Source: Lentimicrobium saccharophilum
GTDB taxonomy: Bacteria > Bacteroidota > Bacteroidia > Bacteroidales > Lentimicrobiaceae
Direction of reading: 5' to 3'
Length of the DNA: 64,000 nucleotides
Assembly (NCBI RefSeq): GCF_001192835.1
Contig: NZ_DF968182.1
Location: 1,552,968 to 1,616,967 of the forward strand
Shown here: piece after piece, positions 27,008-29,917 of the stretch
Layout: each line of letters opens with the position of its first letter
Position numbering within the stretch: position 1 is the first letter of the stretch
Notes under the pieces: generated by a model
Told to the model about the DNA's origin: nothing
Database searches by the model: none
Seen by the model: only the letters and a program-made list of their open reading frames with translations
Position numbers and translations under genes: made by a program

Positions 27008-27931
27008 TCAGTTCACAGTCAGATATGGTCTGAGTTTAATATAAAGGTCCTCGTATATCAGCGGAATTTCGAGCAATTCATCAGGGGAAGCATAACTTCC
27101 TTTTCGTATCCGTTTATCTATGATGGCTTTTGCAATGTAATAGTCAATGTATGGATGGGCCCGCAGTTCGTCCATGGTTGCCGTATTGATATTTACTTTT
27201 CTGATGAGCGAGGCATCGGCAAAAACGCCTTTGCTGATCTGACTGAACCTTATACTGTCCATGCCATATACTTCGAGCAACTGCCGGGCATCGGAATAAC
27301 CTCCCAGCTTCTCGCGGTAACGGATGATCCTGCGTGCAAAAGCCGGGCCTATTCCCCTGACCTTTACCAGGCCCGCCGAATCGGAGCTGTTCAGTTCTGT
27401 GTGCTCATCTGCAAACCGGTTTAACGGATAAGAACGTTCCGGCTGATTTTCACTCCCGGGAGCCGGAGAACTGGCAGATTCAATCCTGACAAAAGGTTCC
27501 AGAAGAGCATAAATCTCATCATTGACAGCATAAAGTTTCCGCAGGTCTTCCTTTTTGAAGAACCTCCCGCCCTTCTCCCTGAACTTCAGAATGCTACCGG
27601 CCTGTTTTTCAGTGAATCCGAGCCTGACCCAGCCTGCCTGATCCAAAGTATTAGGGTCAAAATCAAAAGGATGGAACCTGTCCCTTAATGCAGACCTGTC
27701 GGGTCGTGTAAAATCAAAACTGTGCTGATCCGCCTGCGCCACCGATGCTTCCTGTTTCAGGAAAGCATCAATTTCGGCCGCAAATGAGCCATCGCTAAAC
27801 GGCTCGGGCGTTCTGTACTTAATGTAAATGCGAGGCACAAGCACCAGGATAACAACCAGCAGAATCACGATCAGAATGGCATTGCGTTCCGATTTGCCAA
27901 AATGAAAATACTCTTTCAGCCGGTTATTCAC
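27008..27931 (-). CDS. Membrane-anchored helix-hairpin-helix protein (ComEA-like)
   Basis: 307 residues: a short cytoplasmic N-terminus (EYFHFGKSERNA), one TM at about 17-34, then three helix-hairpin-helix units. The clearest are VKVRGIGPAFARRIIRYREK and VNINTATMDELRAHPYI, which match the ComEA-type DNA-binding HhH. In this phylum such proteins are common and only some act in DNA uptake. It lies 10 bp after the 47-residue membrane peptide and 5 bp before the TPR gene. Its link to the transporter is unexplained. Confidence 0.87.
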   Translation of the reverse strand: MNNRLKEYFHFGKSERNAILIVILLVVILVLVPRIYIKYRTPEPFSDGSFAAEIDAFLKQEASVAQADQHSFDFTRPDRSALRDRFHPFDFDPNTLDQAGWVRLGFTEKQAGSILKFREKGGRFFKKEDLRKLYAVNDEIYALLEPFVRIESASSPAPGSENQPERSYPLNRFADEHTELNSSDSAGLVKVRGIGPAFARRIIRYREKLGGYSDARQLLEVYGMDSIRFSQISKGVFADASLIRKVNINTATMDELRAHPYIDYYIAKAIIDKRIRKGSYASPDELLEIPLIYEDLYIKLRPYLTVN

Positions 27932-27941
27932 GGGACGGAGA

Positions 27942-28085
27942 TTATCGTTCTACATCATCATTTTCAATATAGGAATCAGGTTCAGGTTTTGGTTTCGACA
28001 CCAGCACACGATAGAAAAAGTATACGGTGAGCACTACCACAACCAGCTGGACAACAATCATAAGTATCAAAGCTGAAGCATTCAT
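27942..28085 (-). CDS. 47-residue single-pass membrane peptide, candidate NSS transporter small subunit (MetS-like)
   Basis: This gene is small and easily missed. Read from the ATG at 28085 it gives MNASALILMIVVQLVVVVLT followed by VYFFYRVLVSKPKPEPDSYI and ENDDVER. Residues 5-29 are one membrane helix, followed by a short charged tail. Its start shares one base with the transporter stop (TGATG), which implies coupled translation. This layout and size match the small subunits found after some bacterial NSS transporters, of which MetS next to MetP in Corynebacterium is the described case. The homology is inferred from position and topology only. Confidence 0.75.
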   Translation of the reverse strand: MNASALILMIVVQLVVVVLTVYFFYRVLVSKPKPEPDSYIENDDVER

Positions 28086-29917
28086 CAGGAAACCCTCCCT
28101 TCTTTGGTTCGTTTACGCCAGGCGATATATACAAGCAGCGATATCAGCAGAAATAAGGAAACAAGCAGCAGCCTGGCCATATCAACAAAAAATACCCTGT
28201 TTACAACTTTACCGGTATAAAGTTCTGTACCTGCTTCAATTTTATCACCCGGGGTCAGGGACAAACTATGCTTTTCAGGATTAAATCTGTAATCACGCGA
28301 TACAGGCTCACCACCCGGGTTGAGCCGGGAAACTCTTATATAATGCTTTTCGCGCAGGACGAATACAGAATCGACCCTGCCATCGGCTTCAGCATAAAAC
28401 GCACCCGCAAACCACGTTTTATTCGGCCCGACGCCTTTATGCTGCAGTTGTCCGATTATGCTTTCGTTATGGAACTCCCACTTCCGCGGGTTAAGGTTGC
28501 TCCAGTCGTCATTTACAGGGCGGATAAGGGCGCCTGTAAATACAAGAATCAACACAACCGGGGTAATGTATTTAATAATGAACCTGTATATCAGCGGAAT
28601 CTTTATATCGGCTCCTTCGGTGATTTCACGCCAGCCTTTTTTCAGGCCAAACACCCAGGAGAAGAGGATGGCTTCGAGCAAAGCAAATACGACCAGCGAT
28701 ACAGTTCCGGCCCAATAGTCGTATTCATCGAAGACCCCCTCATTGAAAAAGAAGATGGTGGGCAAGCCCAGCAAAAGTACAACGGTGCCAAAAGCAAACG
28801 CTGCCTTGGGTCGCGACCAGTTAAACTCATCCATCAGGAATCCCATACCCGGCGTACCCATTGCCAGGGAGGAAGTGATACCGGCAAAAAACAAGAGTCC
28901 GAAAAAACTTACTCCGGCAATGGCAGAAAGAACAGGCCCCCATTGCTCAAATAAAAACGGCATGGTACGGAAACCCAGCCCGAGCCCGCCGATTCCGGTA
29001 AGTTCCACCACCCTGTCGATACCCAGGTAGCCGATGGAGATCGGGATAATCACCGCGCTTCCCAGCACTATTTCCACAAATTCATTCATCCAGCCGGCCG
29101 ACATCGCGTTAAGTGCGATATCGTCGCGTTTTTTCAGGTATGAGGCATAACACTGAATAGATCCCATGCCCACCGACAGGGTAAAGAAAATCTGTCCGGC
29201 AGCAGCCAGCCACACCTTGGGGTTGGCCAGGGAGGAGTAATCAGGCGTCCATAAAAAATTAAGGCCTACCGTTCCATTGTTGATCGCCCCTTCGTGTCCG
29301 GCCTTCAGGGTGATGCCCCTGTAGGCCAGAAAAATTCCGAAAATAATCAGCATTGGGACCCCGATCTTGGCCACCTTTTCCACGCCACCGCTCAAACCGC
29401 GGCTAAGTATCCAGGTGTTCAGGGCAAGACAGAGCACAAAAAAAATCAGGGCTTCATAAGGTATGCCAGTGGTAGAAGTGGTTACATCCAGATAATTGCT
29501 GAAAAATCCGGCTACCTCATGCTGGTCCATCCCGTTGAAGGTCCCGAAAAGGGAGTGAAAGATGTAGGAGATTGTCCAGCTTTCGATGTAGCAGTAATAA
29601 GCGGCAATGGCAATGTTCGAAAAAATACCGAAGACTCCCACATACTTCCATATCCAGCGTTTATCCATCGAACCCATGATAAAAGGGGTGGAGTGATGGC
29701 CAAACTGTCCGCCGAACCTGCCGGAGGCCCATTCTATCATCAACAGTGGAATGCCCAGCACCAGAAATGATACCAGATAAGGGATGATAAAGGCCCCGCC
29801 TCCATTCTGCACGGCCTGCACCGGAAACCTTAAAAAATTACCAAATCCAACGGCATTTCCTGCCATAGCCAATACCAGCCCAACCCTGGACCCCCATGCT
29901 TCAGTGTTTGTGCTCAT
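28085..29917 (-). CDS. Sodium-dependent transporter, NSS (SNF) family
   Basis: 610 residues with about 12 membrane helices. The N-terminus WGSRVGLVLAMAGNAVGFGNF holds the unwound TM1 sodium/substrate site, and GGGAFIIPYL the TM2 start. These families carry amino acids or related amines with Na+. A soluble insert of about 100 residues (about 469-571, rich in charged and beta-forming residues) separates the penultimate and last helices, which is longer than in LeuT-type members. It heads an operon with a 47-residue peptide, a helix-hairpin-helix protein and a TPR protein. The substrate cannot be told. Confidence 0.94.
   Translation of the reverse strand: MSTNTEAWGSRVGLVLAMAGNAVGFGNFLRFPVQAVQNGGGAFIIPYLVSFLVLGIPLLMIEWASGRFGGQFGHHSTPFIMGSMDKRWIWKYVGVFGIFSNIAIAAYYCYIESWTISYIFHSLFGTFNGMDQHEVAGFFSNYLDVTTSTTGIPYEALIFFVLCLALNTWILSRGLSGGVEKVAKIGVPMLIIFGIFLAYRGITLKAGHEGAINNGTVGLNFLWTPDYSSLANPKVWLAAAGQIFFTLSVGMGSIQCYASYLKKRDDIALNAMSAGWMNEFVEIVLGSAVIIPISIGYLGIDRVVELTGIGGLGLGFRTMPFLFEQWGPVLSAIAGVSFFGLLFFAGITSSLAMGTPGMGFLMDEFNWSRPKAAFAFGTVVLLLGLPTIFFFNEGVFDEYDYWAGTVSLVVFALLEAILFSWVFGLKKGWREITEGADIKIPLIYRFIIKYITPVVLILVFTGALIRPVNDDWSNLNPRKWEFHNESIIGQLQHKGVGPNKTWFAGAFYAEADGRVDSVFVLREKHYIRVSRLNPGGEPVSRDYRFNPEKHSLSLTPGDKIEAGTELYTGKVVNRVFFVDMARLLLVSLFLLISLLVYIAWRKRTKEGRVS

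Follow-up and report, generated by a model that had tools for sequence, protein, structure and literature searches.

Among NSS transporters, MetP of Corynebacterium glutamicum needs the tiny protein MetS, and the two jointly import methionine and alanine. LeuT of Aquifex aeolicus, the structural reference for work on neurotransmitter transporters and on drug binding, has to our knowledge been studied so far without such a partner, which counts against reading a peptide beside one of its relatives as a subunit. MetPS has been termed a two-subunit NSS system (PMC3219685), and a review describes small proteins with stabilising, inhibiting or retuning effects on other transporters (PMC10710835). 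According to that review and to abstracts of other papers, AcrZ, MgtS, MgtU, KdpF and CydX are likewise small, span the membrane once and either bind larger membrane complexes or form part of them (PMC10710835), with partners that differ from that of the peptide analysed here. No description of such a partner for LeuT-type transporters was found among the titles and abstract openings listed from the open-access literature.

The window, i.e. the whole stretch of 64,000 nucleotides analysed, carries on its reverse strand a LeuT-type NSS gene (P0002, 610 amino acids, 28085..29917) directly followed by a frame of 47 codons with an ATG start (P0001, 27942..28085), recognised as a gene from its homologues and dN/dS values and proposed here to encode a single-span small subunit. 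The frame translates as MNASALILMIVVQLVVVVLTVYFFYRVLVSKPKPEPDSYIENDDVER. The two genes overlap by one base in a TGATG (28083..28087, minus strand), the A at 28085 being both the end of the transporter TGA and the beginning of the peptide ATG. The peptide has a single hydrophobic stretch, a predicted transmembrane helix at residues ~5-28 (28002..28073, minus strand), whose N-out/C-in orientation is deduced from fusions and the positive-inside rule, and a predicted cytosolic tail (residues 30-47, SKPKPEPDSYIENDDVER; 27945..27998, minus strand). Ten base pairs separate the frame from the next gene (27008-27931, minus strand). An earlier note on this DNA had described a 47-codon frame with one transmembrane helix, starting on the last base of the transporter stop codon, and a following gene 10 bp further on, and the coordinates bear out both descriptions (27931 against 27942). 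The same note had called the peptide fused to the transporter, which does not apply to the window, where there is only the one-base overlap, but does apply to other genomes in which true fusions occur. A scan for promoters and terminators returned a number of sites not above that of shuffled sequences.

The transporter belongs to Pfam SNF (175.9 bits) and its closest solved structure was LeuT (PDB 2a65, 3qs6 and others; E 2.9e-113, 382 bits), with 200 identities in 449 aligned positions (44.5%); the next kind of structure, 4us3, which we take to be MhsT, scored 161 bits and GAT1 97. For the LeuT residues checked, which we presume to have the Na1, Na2, gate and substrate roles, P0002 was identical at 4/4 Na1 and 5/5 Na2 positions and at R30/D404, and kept LeuT E290 as E282, while 5/9 substrate positions were identical and two of the four differences lay at sites mutated in the entry compared (3qs6). 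Both the nearest structure and the sodium and substrate residues thus assign the window transporter, by sequence comparison, to the LeuT subfamily. Two features set it apart from LeuT as so far studied, namely the proposed peptide partner and a beta domain of six strands (residues 503-572; 28202..28411, minus strand) that AlphaFold2 models between the last two transporter helices. In this model (mean pLDDT 74.6, pTM 0.79) the pLDDT of the beta domain was 75-92 in 10-residue blocks, and in the alignment with LeuT just 18 residues fell in this region. The domain is presumably periplasmic. In many shorter P0002-like members the last helix follows directly and ends the protein, and these likewise have the peptide.

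The same arrangement, with a small frame behind this transporter, recurred both within the genus and further afield. For a census, the distinct P0002-like (LeuT-type) transporters among the fetched loci were considered wherever 170 nt or more lay downstream (n=84), nine further loci being excluded because their downstream DNA was too short. The peptide was detected downstream by profile in 77 of these 84 and by eye in one more (L045), so that the conserved short frame that the earlier note had proposed to look for directly after NSS genes in relatives does exist. The six remaining loci comprised two fusions (L054, L058), one peptide gene upstream with a GTG start (L121), two peptide genes at other genomic positions (L150, L166) and one locus in which none was found behind the transporter despite sufficient downstream DNA (L234, genome G590, locus only). 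The commonest spacing among the 77 profile-detected loci was a 4-base overlap (43), followed by a 1-base overlap (8).

Selection was examined in 14 homologues of 47 codons, in which pooled pN/pS was 0.25 in the peptide frame. The two alternative frames, each with 3-7 stops, gave 1.2 and 1.5. The four closest pairs gave dN/dS values of 0.03-0.05, and the median was 0.134 over the 20 of 91 pairs that were usable by dS. The peptide frame is under purifying selection and encodes a conserved protein. That the frame is no gene, being open by chance or spacing its neighbours for translational coupling, could have been suspected since it is short and the window peptide lies below every family cut-off; with purifying selection confined to this frame, conservation of the peptide across the phylum sample and its occurrence fused to the transporter, such an explanation is exceedingly improbable, and sequence conservation speaks strongly against it.

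Co-occurrence was assessed in a sample of 247 genomes from the phylum of the window with two peptide profiles, A1 (27 members, the window peptide being its only overlap with the sample) and A2 (32 members, including peptides from 23 of the 34 genomes positive for the transporter, that of the window among them; the 11 positive genomes outside A2 were G116, G124, G194, G053, G171, G051, G059, G113, G149, G220 and G236). A P0002-like transporter was present in 34/247 genomes (BLAST scores of 387 bits or more, against 191 for the next match). At E<=1e-5 the A2 profile matched in exactly those 34 genomes and in 0/213 others, an absence valid to the depth of the best 30 or fewer candidates scored per genome (Fisher p 1.4e-42, genomes not being independent), and the 34/34 agreement is partly built in because A2 was made in part from 23 of those genomes. 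With A1 the figures were 23/34 and 1/213 (Fisher p 4.5e-23, with the same non-independence), the sole outside match being within a 513-aa frame of G212, and this is a chance hit. Six weaker A2 matches (E 0.0017-0.008) were excluded, five of them from transporter-free genomes (G129, G231, G200, G094, G052) and the sixth from G264, where it lay behind a different NSS gene. No relative was found in viral contigs.

In 30 of the 34 genomes the peptide was encoded downstream on the same strand, 3-465 bases beyond the point where the transporter match ended (often short of the gene end); in one it was just upstream (G113, GTG start) and in three elsewhere (G188, G256, G149), the non-adjacent peptide being the sole copy found in these three. 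Copies away from the transporter occurred in 7/34 genomes. G059, G114, G264 and G224 had second, solitary copies, that of G059 without an ATG start, and these second copies may serve other partners. Solitary copies, with no NSS gene in the DNA covered, were seen at L076/L247, L079/L246, L080/L250, L082/L249, L085/L251, L203/L248 and L245. By-eye naming of neighbours placed the solitary peptide of G188 and of G256 next to a phosphofructokinase-like gene, and that of G149 between a thioredoxin-like and a yajC-looking gene.

Copies away from the transporter would suit a regulator that is no fixed subunit and binds at need, affecting activity, substrate range or FtsH turnover in the manner of AcrZ, MgtS, MgtR and MgtU, and the review cited above describes transporter regulation of these kinds by small proteins of 28-55 aa (PMC10710835). 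We regard such a role as unlikely because in most loci examined the peptide start overlaps the transporter gene or lies close to it, which together with the 34/34 co-occurrence and two covalent fusions suggests a constant partner.

These fusions were found in a Saprospiraceae MAG (L054) and in a Bacteroidota MAG (L058), whose transporters begin with the peptide and behind which none was found downstream. The A1 profile matched residues 1-38 of the L054 protein (i-E 7.8e-11) and 1-33 of the L058 protein (i-E 1.6e-7), and no segment of either beyond the N-terminal one matched A1. Neither contains a methionine from the peptide helix to the transporter part, methionine starts alone having been considered. 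NSS proteins of the LeuT fold have a cytosolic N-terminus, so the N-terminal position of the peptide in the fusions predicts an N-out, C-in topology. A class-level search for further fusions matched 75 of 395 genomes, and none of the 30 transporter N-termini read was fused. An AlphaFold2 model of the L054 fusion, computed from an alignment of fusions and transporters only (A5), had a pTM of 0.83 and a TM-score to LeuT of 0.90 (normalised by target), with the peptide helix at a pLDDT of only 58-67 in 10-residue blocks. An alignment that took in the peptides besides fusions and transporters (A4) was dropped, the short peptides apparently having been placed on other helices with 3-19% identity to the first row. 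Covariation analysis of 78 pairs yielded scattered top pairs.

The gene beyond the peptide encodes a helix-hairpin-helix (HHH, ComEA-like) protein of 307 aa with a GTG start at 27931 (27008..27931, minus strand; Pfam HHH_3, 122.6 bits). An HHH homologue was encoded within 4 kb downstream in 28 of the 33 loci, among L023-L060, for which at least 1 kb of downstream DNA was available, and a domain of DNA-binding type thus travels with an amino-acid symporter. This recurrence could indicate that the peptide works with the HHH protein and that its place behind the transporter is incidental, which we consider highly unlikely: the fusions are to the transporter, and L054 and L058 have no HHH gene in the flanking DNA covered. 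In addition, in a Bacteroides finegoldii plasmid record an NSS gene overlaps the next HHH gene by one base, leaving no room for a peptide, so the NSS-HHH link does not require it. The HHH protein is a neighbour, rather than the proposed subunit.

The distribution of small partners among NSS transporters in general was surveyed in 80 fetched NSS regions with 82 NSS frames. The sample was not random: regions were taken mostly down the PF00209 list, with many later entries skipped and two entries merged into one region, and it favours class II (defined below) because four regions (G180:C15, G102:C43, G192:C39 and G044:C9) were chosen partly for adjoining weak PF16951 matches. Frames were assigned to classes by our own rules, based on tail motif and score, and a downstream peptide was counted as a match to A2 or to A3, a profile of 11 MetS-type peptides encoded beside class II NSS genes of the same phylum. 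Class II frames, with a WWNP tail, had a downstream MetS-type peptide in 12/14 cases in this non-random sample. Peptides with a WGG motif lay directly downstream at the class II loci L139, L142, L158, L161, L162, L169, L173, L174, L179, L184, L185 and L186. Six of nine class IV (P0002-like) frames had a downstream peptide, and for the other three it was elsewhere (L150, L166) or upstream (L121). No downstream peptide was detected in the 39 class I frames (all the rest, mostly short) or in the 20 class III frames, which have a PDTWYNP-like tail. The class III loci (L145, L146, L148, L149, L153 and 15 others) have a similar last helix and no such peptide, so the twelfth helix alone is no predictor of a partner. 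A testable rule as to which NSS classes carry a small subunit follows from this survey.

The comparison with MetS was made at the level of profiles. In hhalign, A2 aligned to A3 at 95.7% with a score of 38.3 over 39 columns, the start, the helix and the basic end being matched. Controls with 36 transmembrane-window decoys from the transporter's own helices reached at most 16.1 (11.6%) against A2 and 23.2 (77.5%) against A3, and reversed profiles gave 10.4 and 11.4. The best decoy against A3 was the last helix of the transporter (77.5%), so that helix likeness by itself can yield a fair score. NF033493 matched all 11 members of A3, the first at 39 bits against a cut-off of 25, and gave weak matches to 14/27 members of A1 (best E 0.0096) and to 7/32 members of A2 (best E 0.012); other NCBIfam families matched three or fewer members of the peptide family. 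The window peptide matched no NCBIfam family and passed no Pfam cut-off, and PF16951 was absent from its listed matches; PF16951 was likewise found above its cut-off in none of the 247 genomes. Pfam A13L, ASFV p17, DUF4083, DUF6768 and DUF4576 were rejected for the window peptide as sub-cut-off matches typical of hydrophobic helices. Two weak matches to membrane proteins were obtained in PHROGs, and no solved structure was close to the peptide profile (best E 0.26).

Like MetS, the window peptide is tiny, spans the membrane once and has its gene directly behind that of an NSS transporter, and its family shows homology to MetS-type peptides in the A2-A3 alignment. Unlike MetS, it accompanies a LeuT-type transporter, its family stays below the curated NCBIfam and Pfam cut-offs for MetS (NF033493, NF033494, PF16951), and the WGG motif, which is invariant in A3 and which we take to be the helix motif of MetS, is absent from the window peptide. 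An AWG or AWGG occurs in some distant relatives, and hhalign does not place it on the WGG of A3. The profile match, together with the weak NF033493 matches, indicates that the peptide is likely a relative of MetS beyond the bounds of the curated family. The earlier note's proposal, a MetS counterpart in Bacteroidota whose shortness makes it easy to lose, gains support from the conservation of the frame, purifying selection, co-occurrence with one transporter class, the two N-terminal fusions and the MetS-type profile match. Two limits apply to it: judged by the closest solved structure the transporter is of the LeuT and not the MetP type, and the peptide falls short of the formal MetS cut-offs.

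Because a conserved peptide that the family models tried do not recognise lies behind a LeuT relative, co-occurs with this transporter type across the phylum and is fused to it in two cases, the LeuT-type transporter very probably has in it a second subunit that has been overlooked. The peptide is best read as a divergent relative of MetS that serves LeuT-type symporters as a single-span subunit. We think it quite probable, from these comparisons of sequence, that peptide and transporter make up a two-component, sodium-coupled LeuT-type amino-acid symporter with the peptide as its small subunit, their association and the function of the peptide being what we infer. Its single helix, with the N-terminus periplasmic and the C-terminus cytosolic, would pack on the lipid-exposed face of the transporter, close enough to reach the cytosolic N-terminus ahead of TM1, and coupled translation would provide roughly equal amounts of the two proteins. 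By analogy with MetS and MetP, the peptide may help the 12-TM core to fold, stay stable or cycle, whether by stabilising it, by assisting its insertion or by tuning transport. A wider reading, in which the whole LeuT branch of the NSS, Aquifex LeuT included, would be natively heterodimeric with a one-helix subunit, and twenty years of structures and kinetics would have been obtained without the partner, is rather doubtful.

If a one-helix partner constantly accompanies the LeuT relatives across the phylum, experiments on this branch in vitro may be missing a component, and the natural fusions are ready single-chain constructs for locating the helix. The peptide profile gives annotation a handle on a gene missed by the family models tried. 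A further difference from MetS is the acidic PEPDSY.END tail of many Bacteroidia members of the peptide family, which may be a docking or regulatory site and, more speculatively, may contact the cytosolic face of the transporter. The motif, in the form PEPDSY/F.(E/D)ND, was common to many Bacteroidia homologues, and the PEPDSY.END tail varied little across many Bacteroidia and was missing from other lineages of the phylum.
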